From assembly GCA_023101725.1 (NCBI GenBank), contig JALJCO010010453.1, positions 344,501 to 408,500 of the forward strand: 64,000 nucleotides of DNA, written 5' to 3'. Position 1 is the first letter of the stretch, and each line of letters begins with the position of its first letter. Made by a program: the position numbers and the translations under genes. This document shows positions 3,201-61,500 of this stretch, in pieces. Under the pieces are notes generated by a model that worked only from the letters and a program-made list of their open reading frames with translations, did no database searches and was not told where the DNA came from. The DNA is from Atherinomorus stipes (Eukaryota > Chordata > Actinopteri > Atheriniformes > Atherinidae).

Positions 3201-3552
3201 TGATACCCCACAAAGTCCTGGTCCAGTCAAATCCCAAGATGATACCCCACAAAGTCCTGGTCCAGTCAAATCCCAAGATGATACCCCACAAAGTCCTGGT
3301 CCAGTCAAATCCCAAGATGACAGTCCACAGAGTCCTGTTCCAGATTTTTCTCATGTGGGATCTGGGGGCCGTGCTTCTCCTGAGCTTGTGGAGAAGGTTA
3401 CAGCTGTCCCTCATCGAAGCAGGTTTGCAGCTGGCATTGTTCCATTTGAAGAAACACCTGAATTCACAGAAGTAGCAGAAGCCACAGGAACGTACCTTAG
3501 GATCAGAGACTTGCTCAAAAGCTCTCCACGAAGTTTGTCAAAGAAGAAATAA
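220..3552 (+). CDS. zcchc8: ZCCHC8, zinc-finger CCHC protein 8 (5' partial)
   Basis: Ten exons are readable, all phase-consistent: 220-297, 392-495, 717-782, 876-936, 1018-1151, 1279-1421, 1576-1691, 1885-1971, 2271-2391 and 2600-3552 (TAA). Exons encoding the N-terminus lie before the window. The exon at 876-936 carries the CCHC knuckle CFNCGSVSHQIRDC. Exons 1018-1691 hold the PSP proline-rich domain (RYHADEVEERF, YRMRQLGYPPGWLKEAE, DFPGFN). The exon at 2271-2391 is basic (KRRQEF, QRKKNK), like a nuclear localisation signal. The last exon has PPLPPG/PLPKGTPP proline runs, the conserved LTLEELEEQQRLIWAALE helix and the C-terminal YLRIRDLLKSSPR motif. Known role of the family: nuclear scaffold of the NEXT complex with MTR4 and RBM7, feeding RNAs to the exosome. 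The intron after 1151 uses a GC donor. A 39-bp repeat expands the last exon. Confidence 0.95.
3121..3354 (+). repeat. Six-copy 39-bp coding tandem repeat in ZCCHC8
   Basis: Six consecutive 39-bp units each encode 13 residues of the type DDTPQSPGPVKSQ. Units 3-5 (3199-3315) are nearly identical at DNA level, while units 1, 2 and 6 are diverged. Every unit keeps an S/T-P-Q-S-P core, so the array multiplies candidate proline-directed phosphorylation sites in a disordered region. I do not recall this array in human ZCCHC8. Confidence 0.9.
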
Positions 3553-8900: not shown

Positions 8901-11900
8901 ATGAGCACAGCAAAGCCCACTGGCATCAAAGTGCCTAGCAAGATAGCTTGGCCACCTGGACCTGGAGCCCCTAAGACCAACCCAAGCACAGGTGAGAATC
9001 TCTGTACAGTATGTGAAGGTTCTTCTGCATTTGGTGGACCTGGCATCATAGTTTATGCCATCTAATGTTTCATAGCTGTGGATGACATTGACAATTATAC
9101 TGCAAGACCAAGTCGATTTATTTCCAGCTCTTTTATTATAAGGCTTGTAGTGTTACACATTTTATATATCTCTGTTGTTATAAAGTTGTTATGAGAGGAA
9201 ATAATCAAATGTATCAGTGGTCTGATGAGCAATGAAGAAAACAGAATTTCTTAATCTGCTTAATTTGAGTCCATTTCTTAGTGGATAAACTTTTCTCTTT
9301 CTGAACTCAGCTAAAGTTGCTGTGGCTGACAAATCAACTACAAGTGCTGGTGGAGAAGATGGCAAGAATGCTGAGGAGAGCTTTCAGATTGGAGAGCGAG
9401 TATGGGTGAATGGAAATAAGCCTGGCTACATACAGTTTTTAGGAGAGACGCAGTTTGCCCCAGGACAGTGGGCAGGCATTGTCCTCGATGAGCCAATTGG
9501 GAAGAATGACGGGTCGGTGGCGGGTGTGCGCTACTTTCAGTGTGAAGCTCTTCGAGGGATATTTACCCGCCCTTCTAAGTTGTCCCGCACAGAGGGGGAA
9601 GCTAATGGAACTCAAACTGCACCCCCATCCCGTGCCGCATCACCGACTCCTTCAGTTGGAAGTGTAGCCTCGCATACTCCCGCAACAAAATCAGCCTTAC
9701 CCTCAAGCGCTGCAGCAGCCAAGAAGGCTTCTTCCACTACAACAGCTATACCGTCCTCTAACCTCGTACGCACCAACAGTGAATCCGTCTCCAACCTCTC
9801 AGAGACTGGATCGGTCAAGAAGGGAGAAAGGGAACTGAAGATGGGTGACCGTGTATTGGTAAAGTTTGTGAAAGTATTTTTAAATCACATGACCCATGGA
9901 GCCTCTCTCTTTAAGTGTAAAGAAATTAACATAGGAAAGTTTTATTTAATTTCACTAACCTCAATCATGTGAGGCAGTGGATGTGCTTGTATTTTAAGCC
10001 ACCATCTTTGCTCAGTTCTGTAGTTCTGCTTATAAGCAGATGAGAACTTTCCTTCCTCCTATAAATTCCCTTTTTTGTCCCTTTCTTTAGCCTAAAGAAT
10101 GTGCAGCATAACATGCTAGAAGGAAGTATCTCTCATTCCAGAGGGGCTGTGAAGGAAATCTGCTCAACAAATTTAGTATCATGTAAACCTCTCAGCTGTT
10201 CATTTTAAATGATCACGAGAGAAACAGTGTTTCTAATGTTGTTAATTTGACCTTATTCTGTTCAAAGCTGCACATTTTGGTTTCTGTTGCATTTATGGAA
10301 TTATCTCACTCAGGGTTTTTAGCAAGCAAAGCTGATTACTTTTTAGGCCTCTTTTATCTGTTAAGAGGATTAAATGTGGGCCAATGTTTGGCGTTTCCTT
10401 CTCAGGTTGGTGGTACAAAGGCCGGAGTGGTACGTTTCCTTGGAGAAACCGATTTTGCCAAAGGCGAGTGGTGTGGTGTGGAACTGGATGAACCTCTAGG
10501 AAAGAATGATGGGGCAGTGGCAGGCACAAGGTACAGAAGTCGAGTGATAATTAAAAGAAATCTTTTCTTTTTAAACCACACTTCTTGCATTATTGTAGTT
10601 TTTTATTATTGTTATGATTTTTAACCAATATTTCAAGAGTTAAGAGCAGGGGTGGGCAACTCCGGTCTTCAAGGGCCAGTATCCTGTAGATATTAGGGGT
10701 TTCCCTGCTGCAACACACCTGACTTGCATCAGTGAGTAATTAGCAAGCTTGCATAGATTTTACCCCAGCTTTACACCGGGTCCGTGAGTGCAGTGCAACG
10801 GCTTTGCTCCAACCTCCATGGCGCGAGCATTTACACCGTGCACTGAGCGCCCGTAAGCAGAACAGCTGTTGCTAGATCGGTGACATCATGGAATCACGGG
10901 GGGGGGGGGGTTGCAAGATCGCTTGTGATTCTCATACAAATGGTTGATTTTTTTCCACTTGTTGGTGTGTCATTGTTTCTTATTTCACTGAAACCTTGTG
11001 TACACAGAAATGATGTCATGTTCAGATAGTTCAGCAGCAGTTTAAAATCTGCAGTGGCTTTTGTTTAGGAAGTTACCGGATGTTTTACACTGAATCCCGT
11101 GTCTGATTTCCTGTCTGGTCTGATCCGAAATACTAAAAATTAACATGCTGTCAGTGCGTGCTCCGTCAAAAATAGAGCCGACACGTATCTTTAGCGTAGC
11201 TTTGCAACATGCCGGAGCAACGACGGACCGCTCACGTGCTGTGGTGTGCTCGCAATAAATCAAAACATTGACTACAACAGGTGCAATTCGGTGCACTGCG
11301 CTCACAGACCTGGTGTAAAGCTGCGGTTAGTCTGAGTCAGGTGTGTTGCAGCAGGGAAACTCCTAATATCTGCAGGGTTCCTGTCCTTGAGGACCAGATT
11401 TGTCCTCCCTTGGTTAAGAGTCTGGGTGTCATCCTCGGCAGTGCTCTTATCATTCCAGTCCCAATATGTCACTCATTCAGCTTGCTTCCACCTACATCAC
11501 ATCTCCCACCTATGTCCATCTCTCACACCCAGTAGTTCTGCTATTCTGTTCCAATCCCTGGCAAGTCCCTCCATTAACTTCAACTGGCTCAAAACTCTTC
11601 TGTCATATTATACCTGTCCTGCAGCAACTCCACTGGCTTCCAATTAAATTCCATATCATCAATAAAATCTTAATTCTCACGTTCAAGGCCATCAACAGCC
11701 TCACCCCTCTTTCTCTCTGAGCTCTTCCATATTAACATACCCGGCTGTACTCTCAGATCTTCCTCCTCCATCAAACTTATCCTCCCACCCGCTGGCGTAT
11801 TCCCCATGGGGTCAAGAACCTTAAGCAGTTCGCCCCTCCCATCTTTGGGATTCTCTGCCACTGAATGTACAACAGTCTGATTCGCCTTATACAACAGCGT

Positions 11901-42065: not shown

Positions 42066-45000
42066 TTATACAAGCAACTGTCCAACTGTACTTCCAGTTT
42101 TAATCTCTACATTTTAAGAGACCTTTCAAAGAAGGCCTTCAAGGTATATATGATGCTGAAACTGCCTCAGTATGTCATTTATTTCTATAGAATTTATCTA
42201 GCAAGCAGCAAAACACATTGGAAATCATATCAAAGTACTTGGAAATAATTTCATTCAATCAATATGATTTAATAAGTTAAATGGTAATTATCAGTTAATT
42301 ACTGATAATTTAGTTACTTATTTGCAAATCATACCTAATTTATTGTAATTGTATTCATACAATACTAATTAATTAGACATAACCAATCTCAATTTCTATT
42401 TAAAAAAAACTGCAATGTATTTCATACATAATTTTGATCATGTAGCACTTTTGGTTGCCTTGCATATAATATGGGGTATAATATGGGGTCTTGCTTTGCC
42501 TATGACAAATTTGAGCTCTTTTGGCCAATTTTTGGTTGCAATTACCCAATTTAAACATGTATGTACATAGCCTATATGTACATATATATACATGTATATC
42601 TATTTCATGTTCTGGACTATGTTAAAATTGTGAATCACGCTGGAAACGAAAAGAGAACAACAAAAATATCACCTTGTCATTGGTTGAATGATAACCAAGA
42701 AACTTGTATGTGATAAAATATCTGTAGGTGACAACTGGAAAGTCCGAAGTTTTGTCATCCTCGCTCATCAGTCGTTCTGGCATTCCCGTCATCCTACCCA
42801 CAGTCACTGTGGCTGATGCTATGTTCACAATCACATCTGTACAAATAAAAATAATCTAATTTTGTAAAACTATAAGGTTCCTTTTTGTGTGCATTAAATA
42901 ATACAGCCATACGATAAAAGAGCCCACATTCACAGATATTCAGTCCACATACTCACCACTCATCCTGGCTAAGCCCTTGAAATGATCTCTTTCCTCAGGG
43001 AAGATCCATGAGGTGTCCAGGCAAACAAGCTGTGGGAGACAGTCCACAGTGAAGCCTGGATATCCTGGTGCAAGGGTGAAGGGGTTACCCTCAAGCAACA
43101 GCGTCTTGAGGCAAGGGAGGGTTCTTAAAGCATTCAGTAAGGACTGCTGGTCCTGGAAGTTACAGTCACTGAGGTCCAGACACACCAGCTGAGGCCTGAA
43201 GTCAGAGAAGTCACTGGTATTACAACATGCAGTGTTCTATTGTAACTTTTAATGCAGCAGTGCTAAGAAAAAGGATGTGGCAACTTCTATTCGATGAATC
43301 ATTAAACAAGCAATAATAAATATGTCTCAAGGTGCTTTATTTATTAGGTGCAACTGAAAGAGTCATTTTAAAATTGCTCTCACAATTTTGTATTACACAG
43401 AAGGTAAATGAAATGCAACATAACCACAGAGTGAGTCTAAATAATGCCAAGTATCTGCAAGTTTTACTGCTGGGGATGTAAATATAGTGTCTGTATGGTT
43501 TGGAGGTTGTTAAGTGTCTCTGAGTGTTTTGGTGTTTTGATCCTTGCAGGATGGGTGAGCTAGCCTTGTGAGACCATCCTGATCTCGCGAGCTTCAGGTT
43601 TTCACTCGCAGATCAGTCTGGCTACTTTCCGTTGAAGAGAATTTGGAGCAGTTCACCAAATGAACGTCCAATCAGTGTTGGATTTGAGGCCGGTTGAGCT
43701 GCCTTTTACACATCTGTGCTCAAGGACACAGATTGTGCCACAATGAACACCGATTAACACAGATTAGTTAGTTCATTAATTAGATTTACACAGATTGTGT
43801 TAATCTACCTATACGACTGGCAGATTTTTAGTTATTTCCACAGTTCTGTTTAATTCATATTAAGAATTAGCAGAAAGAAGACATATTATACAAACATTTG
43901 GGTGTCTTAGTTGACATCTACAACAGTCTGATTTAACTCAATTAGCAGTGTAAAGACACATTTAAAAAGAAAGCTATTGTCCTGAATTCTCATTTCAATA
44001 AAAACCCCTGTAAATTGTGTCATCTTGCAGGAAAAAAAGACACATTGTGTCCTTTGATGTGCTTAAGTTTCAATTTAAACCCATGATTTAAGATAAGCTG
44101 TAATTTTGTAAAAGTGGTTACTCTGCTCACAGTAAAATAACGGTCTGGTGTGGGTTTTTTTTTTCAAGTGGAGGATCAAAAGATTACGTACTTATCAGCG
44201 AATTGCAGTCATCACTGTGTCATCATTCACTGATCACTTTGTTCCTCGGTAAGTGTCACCAGTGGAAACTAGTGATAAATCAGCATAATTGTGAAATTCA
44301 GCCTAACACAAAAACTACAGGGACATGTGCTGTCATGGTGTGTTACGCATAGGTGTCATGTCACTAGCTGAAAAGTTCAAATAATCCACATTTGATCTGG
44401 ATTTGGTTTACCTCTTTGAAAACCAGACAGCTTCCTATGTGTATGGGCGTACGGATAACTTAACCAGTAATTTCCTGTGAGATGAAACTCATCGTCATGG
44501 GAACCCAGACTGTTTGAGGCGAGGCTGAGGTATTGCAGCTGACGAGGCGGATGGCTGATGAGGCCTTGTAAAGAAGAAAGCCGGTTTGCACGAAGCTCCA
44601 AAGTCTTTAAAAAACATTTTCATAATTAGTTAATCACAGCCTCATTACAAAATCAGTTTCACACTTTCATTTAAGTTAGTGGTTCCCAAACTGGGGGGCC
44701 AGCTCTCCAGCGGAACCACTGATTTAAGTGCTAAAATTTTCAAGTATAGTGCAGGGGTTGGTCCTGGAGAGCTGCAGTCCTGCAGGTTTAAGATGTTTCC
44801 CTGCTCAGTCAACTCATATGGATCCAACAGCCTATCAAGTTCTCCTCAGTGACTCATTCATTCTCACTCATTCATCCAAATCAGCTGTGTTGAAAGAGGG
44901 AAAACTCCAAAACCTGCAAGACTGCGGCTCTCTTGAACCGAGCTTGCCAAGCCCTGGCCTAGCAGGTACACACCAAACAACGATGTGTTCTAATAAGCAG

Positions 45001-46284
45001 CGGCAACACACTTCTGCCGGACCATGACTTGCCTTTAAGGTATTGGGAAGGTTCTCTCCATTGATTTCTGAAATTAGATTGCCGCTCAGCACCAGCTCCT
45101 CCAGCTGTGAGAATTTTAACAGGCCATCATCAATGACTGATACCTGATGCAACACAGAAATGCCAAGTGCTCAATCATTATGCAATAACTTCTTTGTTCT
45201 GAAGTTGCATTGGACCATTTTAAGAAATCTTATGACACAATGAAACTTGCTCCAACACTGGACTGGAGTTTGAGATTCCTGCTACAGATGATCCCCTCAA
45301 ATCCTCCTTCTAACTGTGAAGTACATGTATTAAAAGGGAATGGCAAATATTTCCCAGAAAAGTTTGCAGTTTATGTGTAAAAATAACTTTTTTCTTGAGA
45401 TGCGCATGATAACCAGGTCGATTATCATGTTAAATGGGTTTTGCAACAAAAAACAAACAAAAAAAAAAACAAGACAAAAGTCCTTGCAATGTTCAGAATT
45501 GGCTAAGCTTTATGTCTTAGAAGAATTAGTAGTATGGTAGAATTAGTGGAATAATTAGCAGTAACAACTGTCTTTCTCTCCACTTTGTTCTCAACATATT
45601 TGGATTATTTCTGTTGCTGAATAGGCTTATTAACTGCATATCACCACTTATTAACAATATCAAACATTTCAGTACATTCTTTCATGAGGCAGAATTTAAA
45701 ATGCCAAGAGATTGCAAAACTATCATTGAAGCAGAAAGTTGCTATTCATTTACTTTATTTTACTAGTTTAACTAGCACTAGTTTTATTAGTTTACGTCAA
45801 GTATTTGGATGGTGAATGGAAAATCTATATACTCACAGCCTTGTCCAGGATATGAAGTGTGATGAAATAGTTGTAAATGAAGTGCGGGTTCAGGCGCTCT
45901 GGTGTGAGCACAGCCAGCTGTCTCAGGGGAGACGCTTGGGGACTCCACTCATTGTTTTGCCACCAAGGAGAGCGAGGGCAGTTCAGCAGATCCAGAAGTT
46001 CATCTGTTGACAGTCTAACTGGTCCTTCTGGTCTTTCTTTGGTCTCTCTCTGAGAAAAAACTCATCGTTTGTGAGTATTTTAGATTTAAAAAAAAAAAAA
46101 GCATGCAAGCAATAATGTGAGTACTACACACTCATCTATACTTTGCTTTTGTTTTGTGTTTTAGTAAGTCTGGAGAAAAGAGCTAAGCCCTTACCCATGA
46201 GCCATTTCCACAAGGGAAGTTATTCAGACCAAGACGATGGATCAGCTTCTCTAACACTGCAGAAAGTAGTGTCTTTGAGCTCAT
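37885..46284 (-). CDS. lrrc43: LRRC43, leucine-rich repeat protein 43
   Basis: Minus-strand exons in order: 46284-46195 (MSSKTLLSAVLEKL), 46049-45837, 45143-45033, 44604-44465, 43195-42957, 42836-42673, 41910-41745, 41309-41170, 41097-41008, 38868-38656, 38438-38336 and 38046-37885 (TAG). Phases agree at every joint except the last. Leucine-rich repeats run from exon 3 to exon 5: FSQLEELVLSGNLIS, LELRANRLSSLQGL, LQYLSLASNSL, LVCLDLSDCNF and LKTLLLEGNPFTL, capped by LVCLDTSWI. The C-terminal half is Lys- and Ser-rich and low in complexity, with a conserved stretch ending VELSVELEKWQSA. About 609 residues are predicted, near the human length. Function is poorly known; it lies beside MLXIP in mammals too. 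Introns after exons 3 and 10 use GC donors. The last exon reads correctly only if the A7 run at 38035-38041 (T on +) has one base fewer. Confidence 0.88.
39611..39755 (+). repeat. tRNA-derived SINE-like arm, + copy
   Basis: The arm contains TGGCTGAATGGTTAGCGCA (A-box-like) and GGGATCAAGTCCTGCC (degenerate B box). It is the inverted counterpart of 40029-40173, and both arms are 145 bp long. It lacks a clean cloverleaf acceptor stem, so I do not call it a tRNA gene. Confidence 0.7.
40029..40173 (-). repeat. tRNA-derived SINE-like arm, - copy
   Basis: On the minus strand this reads CCCTTTGGCTGAATGGTCAG then GGGGTTCAAATCCCGCCCGG, with a near-perfect Pol III B box (GGTTCAAATCC). By eye it matches the 39611-39755 arm at most positions. 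The roughly 270 bp between the arms holds no tRNA-like sequence, but both arms are followed by the similar phrase AAAGTCC..TGAAAACACCT in the same direction. Confidence 0.7.
42024..42062. repeat. Poly(A) tract of about 39 bases
   Basis: Uninterrupted A-run in an LRRC43 intron, followed by AT-rich sequence. No SINE or LINE body adjoins it that I can recognise. Confidence 0.95.
44669..44729. mobile_element. Miniature hAT relic (45 bp) with intact 8-bp TSD
   Basis: The element at 44677-44721 is little more than its termini, TAGTGGTTCC...GGAACCACTG, flanked by identical ATTTAAGT at 44669-44676 and 44722-44729. It lies about 30 bp from a second hAT MITE. Confidence 0.8.
44752..44956. mobile_element. 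hAT-type MITE in LRRC43 intron
   Basis: Left CAGGGGTTGGTCCTGGAGAG pairs with right-end CAGGGCTTGGCAAGCTCGG read from the other strand. Both arms contain the CTGCAGTCCTGCAGGTTT / GCAGTCTTGCAGGTTTTGG motif shared with the other copies in this window. The flanking 8-mers match poorly, so the TSD has decayed. Confidence 0.7.
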
Positions 46285-48166
46285 TATTGTTAACAGTATA
46301 CAACCTTTGACTACAGCATGTATCATATAAAGTAAATATACCCAGTTACTACAGTACAGATATATATGCACAGTTACTACAGTGTATAGCTAAAACGTAC
46401 AGTCTGGTTTGTTTACAAACTTCTGCTTGTTGCCTGGCAACTGTTTGGACTGTCCAGGAACCTTGCAGCAAGTTAGAATTTACAGCCTCTTACTGTTTCA
46501 TTCATCTCTCACACACTGTGTGTGTGTGTTTTTGTGTGTGTGTTTTTTTTTATTGTTTTATCTTGGTTTCTGAGATATTACTGTACAGCACTTTGGTGTA
46601 GCCTGTGTTCATACATGTGCTTTCTCTGGTGTGTGTGGCTACAGTGGGCACGCCTCTCCGTTTCCCCGGCGACCAGGATCTCCCCCTGCACCTCATCTGC
46701 AATCAGAGGCAGTATTCCTACCTGCTTTGCCCTCTAGTCATCACCAGATTGTTGGTCTGCTACTGCCTGCTTGCTTTTCACAATAAACCTTTTTCACTTA
46801 CTCAGCTCTGTGCTCCTGAATCCTGGTCTCACCCAAAACTCACAACAGGTCCAACTTCAAAACTCAGTTCTTATTTATTGAGTTATTCATGCTTTTTTGT
46901 TGCAGAATTTCCCTGTGTCTGTACTTGTGGGTCTAGGTGTATGGATTGTAGCTTTTCACACTTGTTCCCTGTTCTTTATCAACCCATCTGTTTCCATTCT
47001 TTTGATTCCCCCAATGACAGGAGATCATTTTAACCCCAAGGGTAGTTTTAATTTCGATCACTTTAAAAACTTGTAGAAGTTTACCTGACTGAGCCATCTA
47101 TTCTATCTGTATCCAGTTTTTGAACTTTCTGAATTGGCTAGTAAATCTTTTGCCACCCTGCCTCCTCTCTCTCATGCATGCTTTACATTTGGGCTCGTAT
47201 ATCATCATTTTTTCATCCGTTGTGCATATATGCATCCTCAGATTCACAGAAACATTCTATTATTTTCTGCGGTAACCCCCTTTTTTGTCTGTATAAGATA
47301 GGGTCAAGCCCTCCTTCTCAATTGCATTTTACTCCTATTTGATTTTTATTTATTTATTTATTTACTTTTTTTTAGCATCATTTAAAGTTACTTTCTACAG
47401 AATTTGGACCCTGAAGTTTTAAATGTAAGGAAAGGTTTGTGATAACAGCTCTACATAATAAGTTTGCTCATTCACATGGAATGAGGAGAGTCATGAGATA
47501 CAGAATAAATCCCTCAAATATGATCTTTGCTTTACATTTATGACTCTAAAGTGAGTCAAAGACTGATATCCAGTGACATGCATCTAAATGTTGAGATAAA
47601 GATAAATTGTCATCCTTTAAGGGGGAAATTTGTGATCAAATAATTTGGATTATTTTTTTTTATATGTATAATTTTAGTGTTTTCCTTTACTCATTAATCC
47701 ACAAGAGTACCTATCTGCAGTTACAATAGCCGATAAGGACGCCGCCATATATCCAATCCATACAGGAAGTCTCCAGTGGAAGTTAGTTAAATACCACTAA
47801 GAGCATTTATCTGCGGCTTGCAAACTGATGCATTCGGTGTAGTCGGATGGTTAGGGTTAGGAGAAGGGTCAGGGGTAGGGTTAAATTTTAGTAAGTTACA
47901 TGAAGAACAAACTTCCGATTAGGACTTCTGGCGTGGATTGGATATATGGCGATGTTTCGTGACTGCAGTTGGGTCCCTCTCCATTAATAAGCAATACAAG
48001 CATTTAGACTGTCCCTTTTTCTCTTACTTTGATGTGTTGTGTGAAGAATAAGGGAAGGAAATAAAGCCATTCAAAAACAGCAGCATCATTAATTATTTTG
48101 GTTTAAAAGAACCATAAAAATGACTTAGTTTAAAACTCTTTTCAGACACTCTCAGTGCAATTATCA
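46285..48166. other. LRRC43 upstream region to the Tc1 element
   Basis: No supported exon. A stretch at about 46630-46840, with CCTGCACCTCATCTGCAATC and an AATAAACC...CTCCTGAATCCTGGTC end, resembles the 3' end of a fish LTR retrotransposon, but I see no second copy or protease/RT frame. The MITE at 47716-47968 is listed separately. The rest is AT-rich. Confidence 0.45.
47716..47968. mobile_element. MITE with perfect 18-bp inverted repeat and telomere-like core
   Basis: CGCCATATATCCAATCCA at 47743-47760 is perfectly repeated inverted at 47934-47951, and CTGCAGT words extend the pairing outwards at both ends. The centre (about 47850-47882) holds GGTTAGGGTTAGGAGAAGGG-type sequence. No ORF is present. 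Confidence 0.75.
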
Positions 48167-49637
48167 TACAGTTGTGTGGAAAAACTGTTTGCCCCCCTCC
48201 TGATTTCTTATTTTTTTGCATGTTTGTCACAAATAAATGTTTCAGATCATCAAACAAAGTTAAATGTGAGACAAAGATAACACAAGTAAACAGAAAATGC
48301 AGTTTTTAAAAGGTTTTTATTTCTAACAACTGCAATCAAGCGTTTGCGATAACTCGCAATTAGTCTTCTACAGCGCTGTGGAGGAATTTTGGCCCACTCA
48401 TCTTTGCAGAATTGTTGTAAGTCAGCAACATTGGAGGGTTTTCCAGCATGAACCGCCATTTTAAGATCATGCCACAGCATCTCAATCAGATTCAGGTTGG
48501 GACTTTGACTAGGCCACTCCAAAGTCTTCATTTTGTTGTTCTTAAGCCATTCAGAGGTGGACTTGCTGGTGTGTTTTGGATCGTTGTCCTGCTGCAGATC
48601 CCAAGTGTGATTCCGCTTGAGGTCACCAACAGATGGCCGGACATTCTCCTTCAGGATTTCTTGGTAGACAGCAGAATTCATGGTTCCATTTACCACAGCA
48701 AGTCTTCCAGGTCCTGAAGCAGCAAAACGGCCCCAGACCATCACACTACCGCCACCATATTTTACTGTTGGTATATTCCTTTTCTGAAATGCCCTGTTAC
48801 TTTTACGCCAGATGTAATGGGACCTACACCTTCCAAAAAGTTCAACTTTTGTCTCGTCAGTCCACAGAGTATTTTCCCAAAAGTCTTAGGGATCATCAAG
48901 ATGATTTTTGTCTTGGAACTCTGCCATGTAGGCCATTTTTGCCCAGTCTCTTTCTTATGGTGGAGTCATGAACACTGACCTTAATTGAGGCAAGTGAGGC
49001 CTGCACTTCTTTGGATGTTGTTCTGGGGTCTTTTGTGACCTCTTGGATGAGTCGTCGCTGTGCTCTTGGGGTAATTTTGATCGACCAGCCACTCCTTGGA
49101 AGGTTCCACTGTTCCATGTTTTCATCATTTGTGGATAATGGCTCTCACTGTGGTTCGCTTGAGTCCCAAAGCTTTAGAAATGGCTTTGTAAACTTTTCCA
49201 GACTGAAAGATCTCAATTACTTTGTTTCTAATTTTTTCCTGAATTTTTTTTTTTATCGCAGCATGATGTCTAGCTTTTGAGGATCTTTTGGTCTACTTCA
49301 TTTCATCAGGCAGGTCCTATTTAAGTGATTTCTTGATTGAGAACAGGTGTGGCAGTAATTAGGCCTGGGTGTGGCTAGAGAAATTGAACTCAGCTTTCCA
49401 AAGATGTGATAAACCACAGTTTTTTTATGTCTTGAGGGGGCTAACTTTTTCACACAGGGCCGTGGAGGTTTGCCCCCCCCCCCCCCCCCCCCCTTACTTC
49501 ATTTAAAAACTGCATTTTGTGTCACATTTTAATTTGTTTGATGATCTGAAACATATAAGCGTGGCAAACATGCAAAAAAAAAAAAAAAAAAAGAAAAGAA
49601 ATCAGGAAGGGGGCAAACACTTTTTCACACAACTGTA
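48167..49637 (-). mobile_element. Near full-length Tc1 transposon with broken transposase
   Basis: The element at 48169-49635 is flanked by TA on both sides. The termini are CAGTTGTGTGGAAAAACTGT and, inverted, CAGTTGTGTGAAAAAGTGTT. The minus strand encodes a Tc1 transposase in pieces. The HTH part is at 49117-48896 (TTSKEVQASLASIKVSVHDSTIRKRL), the first Asp in LWTDETKVELFG near 48850, the second in QQDNDPKHTSKS and the third catalytic Glu in SPNLNLIEMLWHDLK (48744-48250). Frame breaks near 48750-48900 make it inactive. It ends about 200 bp upstream of the TATA box of the first cytokine-like gene. Confidence 0.92.
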
Positions 49638-49839
49638 TATCTTGATATTTCTGCTGCAGAAAACTCTGTGACATCTTGCATTTGCTTCCAAGAAGTTCTA
49701 CCATTGTGGTCAACAGTGCCCGAAATCAAGTAAAAGGAAAAATTCACAAAGAGATTTTTCTTTAGATAGTAATGCCACAACAGCGTCATCAACCAACCAC
49801 AGATGGCACATGAAAAAAACCGTCCACATTGCAATAGGC

Positions 49840-49847
49840 TATTTAAA
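49840..49847 (+). promoter_or_regulatory. TATA box of first cytokine-like gene
   Basis: TATTTAAA lies 46 bp before the start ATG at 49893, in a short stretch of less AT-rich sequence. The spacing implies a 5' UTR of roughly 15-25 bases. Confidence 0.6.
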
Positions 49848-49892
49848 CAGCCCCTACCAACTCAGGAGCATTAACTCACTCAGAAAGAAACA

Positions 49893-50904
49893 ATGGCCAG
49901 CATATATCAGAGCACAGGTAAGCTGTTATAAAATTATTGATAACTTGGGAGCAATGGATACAATTTTTCATTACCTAGTGAGTGTGAGAGAATTGGAAAA
50001 TGCATAAAGATGGATAAAATGTTAATATTTTATAACTTTACTAACTTAACTTTCTTAAAACAACGCATTCATAGTATCATCATTTTGTCTTGCTGACTCT
50101 CTTTGACTTCAGTTAGCTTTCGATTGACTTGCTATGCAGATGACTACATCATATCTTCTCTGTGTGATTTATTTATTTATTTCTATTTTGCAGTGTTCTT
50201 GTTTTTCCTCCAAATGATGCTGAACATCCTTGTGGCCTCCACACCAGTTTCATTCGGGGCATACTTGTGTAACCTGTTAAAGGCAGAAGAACTTTACGTG
50301 AGTAAACATACTACAAGTCCATGTGATGTTTAGGCTATGTAGTCAAAAAAGAAAAATAATAAAATCTAATGTGGCATCTCATGATTTAAAGTTATGTTTC
50401 AGCCTTATCATAGCTTGCAGAAACCTTTTAATCCATTATTAGTAGATTAAAAGAAATCCTCAACTTTGCCCTTATAAAAAAAATTTAAAAAAATTGCGAT
50501 TTCCTCCACAGATCAAAGATGTCTTTCCAGAAGGATTACCCAGGGCAAACAAGTCAGGACTTTCAGAGCCGCCTGAAGGAATCATTATTCTTTCTAGAAA
50601 CAACACAGAAAAGATTCAAGACTCTATCTGTGCCATCAATGACTACCTCAAAAACCACCTGCCGGCAATCATTAAGTGTGTTGCTGTGAATGACAATAAA
50701 ATCCTCCACAATACTGAAATTTTTCTAGATGGTTTCAAGCAAGACCCTAAAGTGTCACATATATGGAAGAAGATTAACGAGACAGAATGCCAGAGAGTAC
50801 CAACTTCACCGGCTTACGAAATGAAAAGAATTGGCTACCGCATTATTCATTTTGCCAGGAGATGCGTGGAAGGTGTCATAAACAAAACATGCATTCATCC
50901 ATAA
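49893..50904 (+). CDS. Predicted secreted four-helix cytokine, gp130/LIF-IL31 family-like (gene 1)
   Basis: Three coding exons with clean GT-AG borders: 49893-49917 (phase 1), 50194-50297 (phase 0) and 50512-50904 (TAA), giving 173 residues. The N-terminus MASIYQSTVFLFFLQMMLNI is a signal peptide with likely cleavage near residue 24-31. The mature part has six cysteines (34, 83, 99, 136, 161, 170) and four N-glycosylation sequons (56, 73, 132, 167). Its final helix (about 144-168, AYEMKRIGYRIIHFARRCVE) resembles helix D of LIF/CNTF and IL31 (EMKR against ECKR in human IL31). The second intron falls after ...LLKAEELY, the same place as in LIF (after ...FILY). The gene lies between LRRC43 and MLXIP, the IL31 position in mammals, and in IL31's relative orientation. 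Family assignment is inferred from architecture, helix D and synteny. It could be IL31, M17/LIF-like or a lineage-specific paralogue. Confidence 0.72.
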
Positions 50905-51091
50905 TCCTCTCAGACAACACTTAAAACACAGCATATTTATTTATTTATGCAGCGAAGCAGGTTTTCTATACTTACAAATATTTAACAGCCTGTATTTATC
51001 CTATTTATTCTCTACATTGTCTGTGACCTTTGTGCTGCTCTCTTCTCACTGGATAACACAGCCTTTACCATGAGTGTATGGCAAGAATAAA
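50905..51091 (+). promoter_or_regulatory. AU-rich 3' UTR and poly(A) signal of gene 1
   Basis: ATTTATTTATTTA at about 50935-50947 is an overlapping AUUUA cluster, with further TATTTA words near 50985-51005. AATAAA lies at 51086-51091. Clustered AUUUA elements mark short-lived cytokine mRNAs. Confidence 0.75.
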
Positions 51092-51979
51092 AAGATCAAT
51101 TCAAACCAAATGTCTTTTGCTTTCAACTACATTTTGCAAACATCAATTCTACTGCAAAAATTCCATGTGAAGGGTTTTCATTTACATCCACAGTTCACAA
51201 GCAAATGCTATACCCTGATTATGATTAGCAAAACCTGATAAGTCACTTCACTTTAAAGCCACTTTCTCATCCTCAATATTTTGCAGGAGTGGAAATGCAC
51301 AGCATTTGGCCACAACATTAAAATCATCTGGCCAATATGGTGCGAGTCAATGACGCAGATCTGCTTCAACGAGGCATACCACATCTCTGGAGATGTTCAG
51401 TGGTGTCAAGCAGCTGGGTCAAGCGTTTTAATTCCCACAAAGTTGTTGAGACCCACATACTGTAAATAGTGGGTTCCCCCCCCCTTTTTTTTTTTTTTCA
51501 GTTATAGGATCCTTTCCAAGACAGTAAGCTGTGATTGAGAGCGGAACTACCTTTCTGAAGCTTCAGGAGTTGTGCAACTTTTAATTAAATAATCTTAATT
51601 TTAAGGCAAAAGATTCTAGGTTTTACCTCCTATTTCATATTTGATCCTCTTTCCGTTGGGTAACCTGTTTTTCCTGAACATCACACACAAAAATATAGCA
51701 AACCATATCAGAAATATTTCTATTCCTACGTTTACATAAATGTAGTTTAAATTCAAGAAGGCCAATATTACATCAGCTTCTAGTTTAGTCACCTTACTCC
51801 AGGGAAACCCCAGAATATAAAGATGAATCCTGCACTTGTGGTTTTTCCTGTGTCACCCTATACGCAAAGGAACATGTTAATTGATTTTTATCTAAAGAGT
51901 CCTAATAAAAGTGATCATCCAAAGATGGATGACAGAAAGTCAGATCAGAACTTGGTGTTGACTGAAGCCTCCAGCAGTC
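51092..51979 (+). other. Spacer between the two cytokine-like genes
   Basis: About 0.9 kb with no supported exon. An open frame at 51281-51469 begins after a TTTTGCAG but has no family resemblance and no partner exon. A C/T run lies near 51478-51498. TAATAAAA at 51903-51910, 70 bp before the next ATG, is a possible TATA-like element. Confidence 0.5.
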
Positions 51980-52850
51980 ATGGTTTTCCGCGCTGGTAAG
52001 CATCTTGAAAGTTTCTTTCTCCTCTCTACCCCCTTTTCTTTATACCAAACAGTCTCAGAGAACTTATCTACATGCTGGCAATGTTGAGCAACACTGAAAC
52101 TCTCCGGTTGTGGCTGCAGCTTTATCCTTCCTGAGTCAGTGCATCCTTTTCTAATTAATCTCTCATGTGTGGTCTCTGCAGTACTAGTTCTTATCCTCCT
52201 GTGCCTGCGCATTACGCAAAACGCCTGTCGGCCTGTTGAAAACGAAGCGAAAGAAGGAGCCTTGAACATGACCATCGACATGACGCGGGAGAAGATTCAA
52301 GAGGCGCTGGGACATCTTGTAAGATTTATGCTGCTTTATTTAATCTGTATTAGGAATGTCAAGCATCATTTTTATGACTTTCAGGAGCACAGGAACTGCT
52401 ATAGCCTACTTAGATGTCAAATGCAGCCAGTTGTTAGTGCAGCATCCTGTAGGCTAAATGAGCGCCTAAGAGAAATAATGGAGTACTTAAGGGTAGTTTT
52501 TGCTCCTTCTATAACTCTCTGCCCGGCTTTTTCAGACAGTTGAAGGGCTGCTTCCCAACATCTCCTGCGGTTCGCTGGACGTGACGGAGCAGCAGATACG
52601 CAACGTCTCGTCCTATCGTTGCCACATCCAACATCTTTCCAAGCGCATCCCGGAGCTGTCAGAGCAGCTGGACGCATGCGGCCAGTATCTCCTGGACGTG
52701 GAGGAGCTACTCAGCGGCCAGATATCCCATGTGAGCTGCAGCTTGCCCACCTTTCAGGAGGACCACGACAGTTATGTCTATGCCAAGTGCTTGTTGCAAC
52801 TTGTGGATGAACAACTTGTCCATTTAAAAAGTGGTACAATTCCCTTCTAG
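51980..52850 (+). CDS. Predicted secreted four-helix cytokine, gp130/LIF-IL31 family-like (gene 2)
   Basis: Three coding exons: 51980-51995 (phase 1), 52182-52318 (phase 0) and 52536-52850 (TAG), giving 155 residues. MVFRAVLVLILLCLRITQNA is a signal peptide with likely cleavage before Cys21. The mature chain has six cysteines (21, 62, 80, 99, 119, 136) and three sequons (34, 59, 74). Predicted helices lie at about 37-51, 69-100, 100-112 and 129-149. The exon phases and the intron inside the signal peptide are the same as in gene 1, suggesting tandem duplication or shared family origin, although the proteins are barely alignable by eye. The LLPNISC segment and a final helix YAKCLLQLVDEQLVHLKSG are loosely reminiscent of IL31 (TLPCLSP; SECMDLALKSL). 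Not firmly recognised; IL31-like is inferred mainly from position. Confidence 0.68.
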
Positions 52851-53004
52851 CAGCCATAGATTGTTAGTTAAGGTGTTTTTCCTCCTTTTCTTTTTAACTG
52901 TCCAAAGAGCAAACATCTGTCGAAGAGATTGATTTTCTTATGCAATATTTAACGGATATTTATATATTTTTTTTAAGTCGTTATTTATTTAAAAAAAGAA
53001 TAAA
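52851..53004 (+). promoter_or_regulatory. AU-rich 3' UTR and poly(A) signal of gene 2
   Basis: AATATTTAAC, ATATTTATATA and TTATTTATTTAAA lie within about 60 bp before AATAAA at 52999-53004, again the AU-rich pattern of transient cytokine mRNAs. More ATTTA words continue to about 53060, outside the likely transcript. Confidence 0.7.
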
Positions 53005-53103
53005 GTTATAAAGAACTATTTAAATCTTATGCACTAATTTATTTATCTATCTATATTTATTAAAAGAATGCAATAATCAAGCCAATGTTGCATTTGTCTT
53101 GTT

Positions 53104-55534
53104 TTTATTGGGATATAGTCATTTCAGGCATGTTAAAACATGTTGCATCTGAAACCTTGGAGAACACTCATATGCAATATAATAAAATATCTTGTTTTTT
53201 CTTTAAAACAAAACATCAAGTAGAAATATGGGGAGAACCAACATGCAGATTCAATCTGCAATGATACTGTACATTATCAATAAAGAAAAGACTCCCTCAC
53301 AGAAATGGCAAACAAAGATAGGAACCCCAACCTGGTGTGTCACAGAAACACTTGAGGAAAAAGCAAAGCGAAACAAAACATGGGATGTGGGAGGGTAAGA
53401 CCAATAAAGCCCAGGCACAAACAAGGGGAAATTTGGGGCTTGATAATGCTACCATTTCTGTAAGAGAAGACATGATCACAGTAAAGAGAAACATTCTCAT
53501 TTAAAATGAATAGCTGCATTCAGAGGCGCATTCAGTTGCTTAAAATAATAAATTATTTTAGGGTTCAAATAAGGTTTAAATTTCCCATAAAATCACAATT
53601 TGAGGTGGAGTGTTGTTAAATGGTCTTACTTGCACTAGATGTCACTGCTACAGTTACTACACCGGTTTACTTGTGGTTTGTAATTGTATTGAATTTGTCA
53701 TTTCATGGAAAACAAAAATATTGATGACTCATCTTACGCACAAATGGATGCGCAATGACACACTTCCTCCAACTTAGAATTTAGCAGATGCAGAGTGGTG
53801 GGTGGTACCTGATCAAATGACTGGAACAAATCAAACAGAAGAGGTGTTTTTTTTTTATTAAATAGGAAATATGTAATTCTGCAGAAAATAGCAACACTGC
53901 TCACCATCTCACGGGATCTTTAATATACGACTTGAAAAATACTAAATGTGACACAACTGTATACTGTAACAGTGCTAAATTAGACTGCAACTCGCTTTGT
54001 TTACTTTTGTATTTGACACCAGATGAAAAATAAAACCAATCAAAACCTCACAATAAAAGGCTGGGTGGTAAAAGCTGCACATTATTTAAATAAAATGTTG
54101 TCTTTTGCTACTGTAAACTCAGTTCTGCAAAAAAGAGAGAAAAATACATTTCACAAAATCCACGTCTGCCTGAGGAGTGCTGAGCTACAAATGAAAAACA
54201 AAACAAAAAAAAAGACACATCAGTCTACATTGATTAAAGGTAAGGACACTTTGACCTAAAGGACGATGTATGTCAAACATGCCAGCTACATCTGCATGGT
54301 GCTTAACCTCCAACCTGTCAACACAGCAGAGTGCTTCATCATACTGTGCTGGATGGATGGGTCAGCTCTCCGATATGGCTTTTGGTGATAGTCTTTGTGT
54401 TGTGTTTCCACAAGAAAGAGTAGTTTTTTTTCTCTGTGAACTTTTCAAATTAGTGTAACCAAGAGCAGAAAATGAAGAAAAATCAACCTGTACCCTGACT
54501 GACATCCTGTCTTCCTGCTGAGAAGGATCCTGGCTTGATTTGTTCAGATGGACAATAATCTCACACACAAATGTAGCCCTGAGTGACCAACAAAGAATAC
54601 AAAAGACCACTTTTTGTAGACTTGATCCTGCAACACTGTACATGTAAAAAATAGTATATATGTATAATCTGTACTTCTTTGTACTGTCAGTTATGCTCCT
54701 ATGAGGGCAGTAAGCAATATCACTCCATCATGCTGTGAATGTGCCTGTGCACATCCATGTGTGTAACAAATCCAAAATGACTGCTGTCTTGCGTATTTGC
54801 AGTCAAACTCACTAAAAATGGGCAGAACGCACGTAAGGCAGGACGGAGAACCACCAGGAAACCACAAGCCTAAATTAAACATTCACCTGTGTAAATGAGG
54901 GAAGGAAAAATTAAACTAAACTCTCATTGATGTGGTGCTGACCGGACACAGACCAGCCCACAAGTGGCCATATCTCAGGTGATCTCCTACATTCTGGTCT
55001 GAGGCCTTTCTAGGAGAACCTCAGACGGAAAAAAAAAAAAAAAAAGGACAAAACAAACGAGATTTCCATCTTGCAGAGGAAAAATTCCACATTCATCTCA
55101 TCTCCTGGTAAAAAAAAAAAAAAAAAAGCATATCCTTAGTTTTATGCTTCTAAGAGACAACACGCTAACAACATTCACAAAGTTTTTCCCTTTTTAAAAC
55201 ACAATATTGTGTTTTTACACAATTTTTTATTAAATCTATATTGCTGCTCAAGATATAAACCACAAGTACCATTAAGGTATTTAGAAGATTGTCAACTAAA
55301 GCAGATGAAGGTAGTTGAAGTTACTGCATCGTTCCTGTCAATCAATGTCTCAAAGGCCACATGTTCAGTTGTACTGCGTTTAGTATAAACATTACTCAGT
55401 TCAAGGCATCATTCGTTGCTTCATTGACATCTCTGGGAATTTGTGGATCTGAGGAAGACCTTGCTGAATGTCTTACTAGTGAAAAACAACTTCAGGTGAC
55501 TTTTGGATGACCTCAAATCTTCCTGAGAGCGTGG
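53104..55534 (-). other. Probable long 3' UTR of MLXIP
   Basis: No open frame of note between the MLXIP stop and a minus-strand AATAAA (TTTATT at 53104-53109). That signal is only about 100 bp from the poly(A) signal of the opposing cytokine-like gene. A17-A18 runs near 55029 and 55110 lie inside. A second AATAAA candidate occurs near 53855. The UTR length is therefore a maximum estimate. Confidence 0.5.
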
Positions 55535-58500
55535 CTATACATCTGAGGATGTGACGGCCTGAATGGCTTCTTCAGGGAGCATGGAGGGCTCACTCAGGAT
55601 AGATGTGGTTGTGCTCAGCTGACGGAGTGTACTCAGCACCACTGGAAAATAGTGAAACACACATTAGTGACCATAACCTGATAAAAAATCAAATAGACTG
55701 TCATACTACATATTAGTACTGGACTACATGAGCTGCATTTAAGCAGATTCAAATCTTGATTATATTTTTACGCCCCCTAGATTTTTTTTTTTCCCATTTA
55801 CATCCAGCAAAGTACAGCATCTGTTTCAAAACATTAGGAAATGTAGGTTATAACATGTTTGTGCTATTGTTTTTTTCTATATTCCTGAAGAAAGCTTCCC
55901 CTCTAACTGAAAGTAAGGCTGGCAAGAACAGTCAGATAGCACAGTGAAGCCGTGGACTGTGAATCGTAAATGCAAAATAACTTGTGGAATTCTAAAATGA
56001 TCTATAGATGAGTGGGACAACTTAGGAAAATCCCTTTCACATCATTTTTTGAAGTGTTAAGAAATAAGAGTATAAACTTTTAGATCATTTCTTTTTTGTT
56101 AAAGAGCACAAATACACCATTATGGAAATCACTGGGTAATTTTACCAGTGCATTTCTGAGCTGAGAAGTGCATTTCCTCCTATGACTAATCTAAGAAACA
56201 GAATTAATAAATCTATAAGGGAAAATGTGGAAATACACAGAAGCAAAAGTGAGTACAAAGGTACTTCCTGTCATCTGTGTCAGAAAACTCGCTATCACTG
56301 CAGCAGACTTGATGTGATTTCTAATTATACTAGATGGAATTGAATAAAGCTGAGTGCCTTCACTACAGACACAAAATGATGCAGGAAGATCAAACTGACC
56401 GACTGAATGAATAAATAAAACCCACAAAAACATTGTGGTAAAAGATACATATGGGTTTTTCCCATGCCTGTAAATTTATATAAATATTAGCTTCTCATTT
56501 TCCAGAGGCCCAACTGAAATGGGGAATATTTGCAAATTCAAAAGAAGAAAAAAAGGTATAGCTATAATTAAGCCAAACATGTCTCCTCATTTCAATCCTT
56601 TATAAACATTAAAAACAAAATTACAATCCTCTGAGCAAAGATCTGCTAAAACACAAGGTTTCTGAGGAATGGCCTAGACTCTCCCGATGTTAAATAAACA
56701 AATAAAAATCCAGTCTCAGCAATAAAAGACTTAATATTTGTTTAACTGAGTTTCGACTGTTTGGCCAGCCTTTTTATTTAAATAAATAAACTGCGGTACA
56801 CTTCTCATATGAGCGAATACATTGCTGTTTATGTGTTGGGGAAGTGCACCTCCTCTTAGCTGATACAATTTTTATATAGTTTTGTTATTCTATTAAAACT
56901 GCACAGATGTGCATTCATCTTTGTAGCATACTGTTTTAGCCAAAAAATATTCCATTATAATCTATTTGACATTGATTTAAGTTACATGTAGTGTAACCGG
57001 TATTGCAGTGCACTGTTACTTTTCTTTGCTTGGTTCTTTTTAAAATTCCAAAGTTTTGCATCTCATGACTGAGGGACAGCTCAGTTACAACTAATGAGCT
57101 GTTGCATGACACATTAGACGAGGAGGGAGAGATTTATCACCTACAGCAAAACCCAGTCTTCAAGCTGCTGCAAAAACAGTGACTGGATGATCGTCATCTT
57201 TTATTATCAGTGATAAAAGTGAAATAATTACAGTCAGACTTAAACACAATCAAAATATATTATTAGATCAGGGAGATGGTAAAAAATGTTTCTTGTGAAG
57301 TATAATTACAACTGAAATGACTTAATATAAAAGATCATTATCTTCTTAAATTTCCTGTAATGAAACGGTTACCAGGCAGATTCCTTTTGCGCAGGAAAAC
57401 ACAGAGATGGTGGCAGATATAACACAGATCATCTCGAATTATACTCCTCGCACAGCTGGAAAGAAGTCCCGTCATGGGTGCAAATAATCCTCAAATACTG
57501 ACATTTTTGTTTTATATTAATCTCGGGGTGGGTGGGGTGATGACGTTTTCATTTATGCCTGTATGACCGTGTCTGTGTTGGAAATAACTGTTCCTTTACT
57601 TACTGGGTCTAAGGACAGGAAGGGAGCAATGACGATCGAGCCACTGCAGCGTGGTCTGGTACAGCTCTGCTCTGCTTGAGGTTGACACCATTCCATTGAA
57701 AGACTCGAAGAGAGGCTTGATAATGATGCTGAACTGAGATGCATAATAGTCAAGGATGAATTGAAAAACAGAGCAACACTCCTTGACTACAAGTCTGAGT
57801 ACAAAACTATTCATTTTTGTGTTTCTGCTTTGTGTTTTACCTTTTCATTTTTCATTTTTTCATATCCTTTAAATGTAAAGGTACATTACTTATTAAATTG
57901 TTTGACACTTCCAGTATGGATTAAAGGGCTCATATTATTCAAACTGACTTTTTCTTCACTTGGTAATGGACAGCAGAACCATTTCCCTTACAGTCTAAAA
58001 CAGGGTTTCCCAATCCAGTCCTACGAGGGCTGCAATCTTGCAAGTTTTCAATCTGTCCCTGCTCAAACACACCTGACTCAAAATAATGAGTCCTTAGGCT
58101 CGTTCGGATTGACTGCATCCGTCTGCCATCTGACTTCATAGTCAGAGACCTGCGTGAGTCGTCAGAGGTGGGTCAAAAAAGCAACACAGCTCAGCCGGAC
58201 AAGTTTGCCAACGTGAAGACTCCAAGGATGGAGGATCTCGCGGCATTTGCCTTATTTGGCTAAAAGTTACCGAATGCTGTGCAAATCTGATCAACTCATC
58301 TAATTTCAGAGTATTGAGACAGTATTGAGACAGCATTGTTGGTGACGCCAATTACATGAACTTGTACTGTAGTAGAAACATCTTGCCAGACAGAATGCTA
58401 TTTACTTGTTAAGGTGCAACATAAAGGACAGCAATCTGGTAAATGTCCAACTTCAAATATGCAAAACTTTAATGCTTTGCCTTGTTCGGAATTAAAAACA

Positions 58501-61500
58501 AATAAAAGAAAATGGAAACTTTTTTTTTTTTAGATGGGGTACAAATATTGTAATTATGACAACGACCTACCCATTAATGCTGTTCTTCCACAGGACAGGA
58601 GTTGGTTAATTTACACCCACACTGGGTTCTCACTATTTTCAAAATTTTTATTTCTTCTTATTGTTTATTTATGTGTTGAAGGTCTGAAAGGCACCTATGA
58701 ATGGAATGTATTATCATCATTATTATTATTATTTTTATGAGGGGGAAGTGCAAAGGTGGTATGAGGAAAGGTATGGATACACACCAATGAGTTCAGTGTC
58801 AGAATAAAACAAATCCACATTATGAAGAGGATTTGTAAAATTTTTGCCCACGTGTTGGCATAACCAACAGTTATGCTTCATATTTATCTCAGTGTGATAA
58901 CCTGTGGCTACAACACATTTCAGTTTACTTTGTTGAAGCAGTAAATTATTCTGTCCAGGTTTTGTGAGCATAAGCCTAAAGGCAGTATGAAACACCAAGC
59001 CTGTTTGAAAAAAAAAAAAAAAAAAAATGGGAGGGGGGTTGCGTTTTTTTTTGCAGGTTATAATTTTGTAGCCTATTAATATCAAAATGGGTTCATTACT
59101 GGGAGCATCACATGCTGGTCCTGTCAGAAAAATCGGAGCTTGTGTCAGTGAAAGGTTAAACCAATCAGGATCAAGTCCTGTTGTAGGTGGAGGCAGATCC
59201 ACAAGCTGGAGATGATGAGCTCTGGCTGCACACTCCTACTACAGTCGGACAGCTCCAGCAATGTTTTATGATAATGTGATATGGTCACGTTTTCCGGTGC
59301 AGGGCAGGCGCAGTCTGAAGTCGGACATAGGTTCTAACCGGCATGCAATACTCCAGGACCACAATCTCTTGCTTCCAGCTGGGTTACGCTGCAGATAGCC
59401 CCAAACGAGCCCATTGCCCTGAACATCATAGGCTGTTAGATCCATTTAATTTGAGTCAGGTGGACCTTATAGGCCTTATAGGACTGGATTGGGGATCGTG
59501 GTCTAACAGAGTTTCTCAGCTCCAGTCCTCAGGACCCACTGCCCTGCATGTCTTGGATGTGTTCCTTCTCCAACATGCCTGATCCAGATGAATGAACTTC
59601 CTCATCAAGTTTTTTGCAAACCAACCAACAAGCCATTCACTTTATTCAGGTGTGTGAAAGTAAGGTTGTCTAAGACAAGCAGGCCAGTGAGTCCTGAAGA
59701 CCAGAGTTGACAAACACTGGTTTTAAGCATTGCTGGTGAAATTGTGCGAGTGAATTTGTCAACATGTGTCTGGCAAAATGTCCTCATTAGTGATGACATA
59801 AGAAGCTATGTAAACTCACATCCCTTACATTTTTTCATTCTCTTGGTTGTTATTATATAAAGCAGCATAAAGTTAATTTTCATTGAAGGATACAATCCAG
59901 AACTTCCAGTTCTGAAGAGTGCGGCTCTTTACGTATTCATTGAACTTCTCTTGCATGTGGTCTAAACGATGCCGCCTCAAAGGAACACCTGTTGCAGGGA
60001 GCTGCTCCTGACACAAGCTGTGGTTCAGCATTGAGAGGACACAGAAAGAGTTAATTTGCTAAAGGTTTGTGCAACATTTCCATGGTGGTCCATGGTACTC
60101 AATGTTTTGACATACCTAATGGAAGTATTGAGCTCCTCTATCTCCTCTCGTAGTCTCCTGACCTCCTCCAGCACCTGCTGCCTCTCCTGCTGGAGCTTCC
60201 CGATGTGCTCCACAGTTTTCTGCAGAGTGACTGCATTTGTGATCTAAAGGCACAAAGTTAATAATGATAAATACATGTCAGCACAGTAAATATTAGGAGT
60301 AAAATCTGTCCATGTCTACAATCTGTTGCTGAAGTTTTGACTTGCAGACTTACATTTGATTGTGACTTAAGAGTAGGAACCAGGGTGCAGAGTGTCTTAA
60401 AGCCGATGTTTATGTTTGATCGTCTCTTTTGTTCAGTAGATATGTGCGTTGTTCTCCGGCTCTGTCATACGTTAAATAGAAAAACGATACTGATTTTGAT
60501 GTGAAGACAAAAAAATTTTATTTCTTTTTTCATGCACAAAAAGTCCTGTAGAGCCCAAACTCAATACAAACCTGATTGTGCTCATTCTTTATCAAAGCTG
60601 TGCTGCTGCTGCCAATTATTGACTGTGGGCTGGGAACTTGATCTAACCCACAAGGTGACCCTTGACTGGATCCTGGCTGACTGTGAACTGAAAAGGAACA
60701 AAAAAAGCATGAATACTTTTTTTTTTTTTTTTTTTTTTAAGTTAATAAACTTTCCCGTGGACACAGAGTTCTCACCAACACCAGAGGAAGCTTTCTGATT
60801 TTTGCGACTGGAAGAATATGACTTCTCTTTTGGGACAATCGCCTGAGGAGATTTCTGCGTCTGAGGTAATACATGAAATCCAGATGCCTGAGATACATAT
60901 TGAGATGTAAACTGTAATTCAAGGCCCACGGAAACAAAATATATTTTCAATTGAACTGTCACCGTTTAGGCCAGGGGTGGGCAACTCTGGTCTTGGGGGG
61001 CCAGCATCCTGCAGGTATTAGGAGTTTCCTTGTGGCAACTCACCTTGTGACTTGTGCAAAGCTTGACATCAAGCTCTGCACAATCACCCATCGATTGGAA
61101 TCAGGTGTGTGGTAGCACGGAAATTCCTAACATCTGCAGGATGCCGACTCTCGAGGACCGGAGTTGCCCACCACTGATTTAGGCGATAAGACATTTAAAT
61201 GCTGTCACTGATATTTTTGACAAATTAGAAATTGCAAAATGAAAGCATACTGCTCCAAGATGTGAAGGAGTGATGACTACACTGGCATTACTGGAGACGA
61301 CTTCTGCTTTCAGGGGTGTGGGTGTAACAATCACAGCATTCGCGTGACCTGCAAAGGGGGCTGAGAGGATATATGTGCAGTTACACACAAACTGTCACAT
61401 ATGAGTTATCATTTATAATATCTGTTTTTTAAGTTTCTGAATAAAAAAGTAGGTTCAGCTGTAAATATGCATTAAAAAATGTTTGCAAGCTAAATACTGC

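Follow-up and report, generated by a model that had tools for sequence, protein, structure and literature searches.

Two adjacent candidate helical cytokine genes in the IL31 interval of the fish Atherinomorus stipes

IL31, which acts via IL31RA and OSMR, is the itch cytokine of mammals. In the fish Atherinomorus stipes, the interval from LRRC43 to MLXIP contains two small adjacent genes, hereafter gene 1 and gene 2, which are candidates for secreted helical cytokines. They are contained in a stretch of 64,000 nucleotides (assembly GCA_023101725.1, contig JALJCO010010453.1, positions 344,501-408,500 of the forward strand), which is called the window and to whose numbering all coordinates refer. 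Rebuilt from the sequence, both genes run on the plus strand and comprise three coding exons, which specify proteins of 173 amino acids (gene 1) and 155 amino acids (gene 2; Table 1). All four introns are bounded by GT..AG, and in each gene the first is in phase 1 and the second in phase 0, an arrangement of two same-strand, three-exon genes that an initial annotation of this DNA had described correctly, coordinates included.

The first intron of each gene falls inside the hydrophobic leader, whose best 12-residue Kyte-Doolittle mean is 2.19 in gene 1 and 3.02 in gene 2. Secretion was judged by this hydrophobic stretch, and the leaders were assumed to end at residues 23 and 19, respectively. 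Six cysteines are found in each mature protein, while NxS/T sites number four in gene 1 and three in gene 2. The 3' untranslated regions (UTRs) contain 6 ATTTA per 196 nucleotides in gene 1 and 4 per 170 nucleotides in gene 2, compared with 0.57 per 196 nucleotides on average over the window, and both carry the TTATTTA[AT][AT] nonamer together with a poly(A) signal. Everything that had been annotated at the outset in this respect, i.e., an intron in the signal peptide, six mature cysteines, glycosylation sites and AU-rich 3' UTRs, was recovered. Overlapping ATTTA runs at 50935-50948 and 52981-52990 are of the type that confers a short life on cytokine mRNAs.

Table 1. Features of the two genes and of their surroundings (window positions)
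Feature	Positions	Strand	Remarks
CLIP1 CAP-Gly exon	9292..9969	+	synteny marker, beyond LRRC43
LRRC43 exon pieces (5' half)	42943..46061	-	head to head with gene 1
TATA-like TATTTAA 5' of gene 1	49840..49846	+	weak: 0.6 such sites expected per 290 nucleotides
Gene 1 coding exon 1	49893..49917	+	leader start; phase 1 intron next
Gene 1 coding exon 2	50194..50297	+	remaining leader and probable helix A; phase 0 intron next
Gene 1 coding exon 3 with stop	50512..50904	+	130 amino acids; [FY]xxK..G motif at protein residues 145-151
Gene 1 3' UTR	50905..51100	+	6 ATTTA; nonamer 50937; poly(A) signal 51086
Gene 2 coding exon 1	51980..51995	+	phase 1 intron next
Gene 2 coding exon 2	52182..52318	+	leader and helix A; phase 0 intron next
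Gene 2 coding exon 3 with stop	52536..52850	+	104 amino acids; helices B-D
Gene 2 3' UTR	52851..53020	+	4 ATTTA; nonamers 52981 and 52985; poly(A) signal 52999
MLXIP C-terminal exons	55544..60458	-	tail to tail with gene 2

Both neighbours were identified by sequence matches, which bears out the initial placement of the pair between them. The minus-strand exon pieces next to gene 1, once joined, match the PDB entry 9ijj_5C ('Leucine-rich repeat-containing protein 43') with an expectation value (E) of 2e-38. MLXIP was recognised in five minus-strand tblastn segments with 46-70 % identity to the query, a human C-terminal piece, and in addition by a helix-loop-helix (HLH) match in Pfam. CLIP1 was called from a CAP-Gly domain, the best PDB matches of which are restin/CLIP1. 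Human IL31 is likewise tail to tail with MLXIP. In the horse, the gene order of the interval is MLXIP, IL31, LRRC43, B3GNT4, DIABLO, CLIP1 (PMC6402180), which agrees with the annotation's statement that human IL31 sits between LRRC43 and MLXIP, and a human association table lists a variant inside LRRC43 that is 9 kb from IL31 (PMC9741635). Since LRRC43 and MLXIP flank both fish genes and the horse order is MLXIP-IL31-LRRC43, the pair occupies the IL31 slot.

Gene 2 is conserved in at least one other fish. Its single relative at E ≤ 1 in a protein database search is medaka LOC144994591, named 'uncharacterized protein' (E 2e-23, 45 % identity over 137 aligned positions). Searching with a two-sequence profile yielded a second one, P0005 (133 amino acids, E 8e-31), from a metagenome contig of 2916 bases; the two relatives mark gene 2 as real beyond chance. 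The first 19 residues of P0005 resemble translated intron, in which case its exon 3 would start at the same place and in the same phase as that of gene 2. This fish-like exon in a metagenome contig presumably reflects fish DNA in the sample. Viral contigs contained 32 stretches matching a gene 2 pattern, none of which was confirmed. In the three-row alignment of gene 2, medaka and P0005, cysteines C44, C69, C108 and C125 (medaka numbering) are invariant. Cysteines 21 and 99 of gene 2 are both missing in the medaka relative, and P0005 likewise has serine at position 99. Their joint absence in medaka suggests that the two may form a disulfide with one another, which would be gained or lost as a whole.

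The medaka relative of gene 2 is modelled as a four-helix bundle (helices 4-32, 60-77, 79-100 and 116-137; predicted local distance difference test, pLDDT, of the best model 79.8). The prediction rested on a three-sequence alignment; alignment A2, in which exon 2 of gene 2 was misplaced, was excluded. The model has the long A-B and C-D loops and the short B-C turn of long-chain class I cytokines, and the secretion leader that goes with this class is present in both gene 1 and gene 2, to judge by the hydrophobic stretch. Its best structural matches (Foldseek, VIA) are helical cytokines, mainly G-CSF, CNTF, IL-11, IL-6, leptin and LIF. The VIA matches listed also include the interferon 8irq, prolactin-type hormones and 4j4l, the title of which does not give the identity of chain C, and unrelated helical proteins such as phycobiliproteins and PRONE domains appear among the Foldseek matches from rank 28 on. 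The IL-31 structures 9uk5 and 9vp0 come at Foldseek ranks 41 (E 2.2) and 48 (E 2.7); IL31 is outside the 50 VIA matches listed, an absence that excludes nothing. The four-helix cytokine fold that the initial annotation had put forward as a check was thus predicted for gene 2's medaka relative but not for gene 1, whose exon 3, modelled alone, gave an unusable model (pLDDT 41.4).

That the medaka model matches G-CSF best, and not IL31, would fit a history in which rapidly evolving class I cytokines from a different branch (G-CSF, IL-11, leptin, or the IL-3/IL-9 type) moved into the slot, its coincidence with the position of IL31 being fortuitous. The top pairwise scorers among cytokines, IL-9 for gene 2 and IL-3 for gene 1, point the same way. 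However, when judged against shuffles no pairwise score of either gene is significant, nor does any other sequence score tie the genes significantly to those families. G-CSF, CNTF, IL-11, IL-6 and leptin share 5 to 10 % identity with the medaka model in the aligned parts, and their genes have other genomic places in mammals. Mammals, moreover, hold one cytokine in exactly this interval (PMC6402180), and a move from another branch appears quite improbable.

Gene 1 is without a relative in the searches made: the protein database gave 16 candidates, none at E ≤ 1, and the viral contigs a single pattern-matching stretch, which was not confirmed. Together with the poor exon 3 model, this is what would be seen if gene 1 were a decayed gene or a chance gene model next to a genuine gene 2. 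Against this reading stand an intact frame, four consensus splice sites, a leader, a 3' UTR holding six ATTTA, and a poly(A) signal, and we give it little credence. The 130 stop-free codons of exon 3 have a chance probability of about 2e-4 at its base composition and, taken together with the splice sites, the leader and the AU-rich UTR, they argue that gene 1 is real beyond chance.

Gene 1 carries Tyr145-x-x-Lys148-x-x-Gly where its last helix starts. It shares the pattern [FY]xxKxxGxx[LIVMF][LIVMF] with LIF, OSM and CNTF, and the 20 other sequences scanned lack it (the pattern arises in 0.34 % of gene 1 shuffles); gene 2 is devoid of [FY]xxK. As described in two studies, the FXXK pair is the LIFR contact in CNTF, CLCF1 and LIF (PMC10022904), and that of OSM contacts OSMR and LIFR (PMC11910226). 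At the matching helix-D place IL31 has FECK in dog, YDCK in mouse and HECK in human. With the [FY]xxK..G mark and an IL31-like spacing, helix D of gene 1 thus stands between the IL31 and LIF/OSM groups, both likenesses having been noticed after the fact. The resemblance of this helix to helix D of the LIF/IL31 group, which had been pointed out initially, has some foundation in the motif common to LIF, OSM and CNTF; whole-protein scores are not significant. Pfam LIF_OSM (PF01291) finds neither gene, while human LIF and OSM pass as controls; in the hhalign comparison gene 1 has OSM in second place, and its helix D is set in register with that of LIF, again without significance. The gene plan is a further likeness: the LIF gene has three exons with a phase 1 and then a phase 0 intron, so the plan of the pair is LIF-like. 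LIF and OSM are themselves a tandem pair.

These likenesses would be explained if one or both genes were the known fish M17 (Lif in zebrafish) or a zebrafish-type Osm, i.e., ligands acting via gp130 and LIFR or OSMR, IL31 itself being derived from LIF/OSM stock. Fish do possess M17 (PMC4929537), and an osm has been described in zebrafish (PMC11910226). On the other hand, PF01291 misses both genes, although it might miss fish M17 too, gene 2 is without the mark in helix D, and the name of its medaka relative is uninformative. We consider an M17 or Osm identity unlikely, if far from negligible.

The IL31 identity of either gene was not borne out by sequence comparison. Pfam IL31 (PF15209) has no match to gene 1 or gene 2 at E ≤ 10, and none to P0001 or P0005 at E ≤ 1; as controls, human and mouse IL31 score 4e-57 and 7e-50. 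Neither NCBIfam nor the PDB sequences contain a significant match for the pair. With hhalign against 20 cytokine families, IL31 came 8th for gene 2 and 5th for gene 1, none of the families being significant. Alignment to an IL31 profile under two scorings gave z scores of 0.1 and 1.5 for gene 1 and of 0.8 and 0.3 for gene 2, the top being IL-4 (2.6 and 4.4). With four IL31-only blocks, gene 1 ranked 18th and gene 2 15th of 24, and in the same test, with blocks from human and dog IL31, the left-out mouse IL31 reached a z score of 12.3, compared with 2.3 for gene 1 (20 of 1000 shuffles), 2.0 for OSM and 2.1 for IL-4. In these profile and block comparisons, the two genes score no higher against IL31 than unrelated cytokines do. 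A match of gene 1 to IL31 along all four helices was dropped after the block test. The pair is placed here with helical cytokines in general and not with IL31.

Several likenesses to IL31 exist all the same, namely the slot between MLXIP and LRRC43, the small secreted product and one short string in each gene. In helix D, VPx(3-6)[FYH][ED]xKx(12)C is found in gene 1 and otherwise just in the three IL31 among 24 sequences (11 of 100,000 gene 1 shuffles). In the AB loop, Cx[ST][LPS][DN] is common to gene 2, both its relatives and three of three IL31 but occurs in none of 18 other human cytokines (1.6 % of gene 2 shuffles). Both patterns were framed with the sequences already in view and are to be taken as leads. 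As differences, mammals have one gene where the fish has two, and mature human IL31 has three cysteines as opposed to the six of each fish protein. A tentative proposal, conceivable rather than expected, is that the pair includes at least one genuine IL31 orthologue. IL31 would then date to the bony-vertebrate ancestor, at its present position next to LRRC43 and MLXIP, and would not be a mammalian invention. Gene 1 would keep an older helix D in which the IL31 spacing (VP...[FY]ExK...C) and the site III mark of LIF/OSM (FxxK..G) come together, tying IL31 to LIF/OSM stock.

The interpretation we favour, with confidence evenly poised, is that the products of the pair are gp130-type helical cytokines, secreted and glycosylated, and that the two genes are positional counterparts of mammalian IL31. 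The pair and IL31 would descend from one or more cytokine genes already present between the ancestral LRRC43 and MLXIP genes, and the presence of two genes in fish would reflect a tandem duplication or an old pair. Their mRNAs may be induced in stimulated leukocytes or barrier tissue and be short-lived. Each secreted protein would join two receptor chains of the gp130/LIFR/OSMR group, a pairing that would activate JAK and STAT3. Gene 1 could bind an OSMR- or LIFR-type chain via Tyr145-x-x-Lys148 at the start of helix D, and gene 2, which is without the Tyr-Lys pair, probably uses another contact surface.

IL-31 was called unknown in fish in a 2016 review (PMC4929537), and IL31 and OSM were found in mammals only in a survey of May 2026 (PMC13203501). 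Since zebrafish osm has been described (PMC11910226) despite the latter, absences inferred from sequence searches in this cytokine family are weak. No report of a fish or non-mammalian IL-31 was found in a literature search outside which most subscription papers, those on M17 among them, lay. The pair in the fish IL31 slot provides concrete candidates with exact exon coordinates, which bear on the origin of IL31 and on the ligands of OSMR-type receptors in fish.

As to the remainder of the window, an Rfam scan gave no match, and no tandem repeats were found at 47000-56000. A Tc1-like transposon remnant (48179-49626) lies between LRRC43 and gene 1, with a minus-strand DDE_3 transposase match (E 4e-13) within long inverted repeats whose arms span 48179-48310 and 49502-49626. 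Finally, the end of a long plus-strand reading frame at 2587-3552, which is without a match in Pfam, is presumably ZCCHC8-like. In human, ZCCHC8 is the next neighbour of CLIP1, so that the conserved gene order may extend further in this direction.
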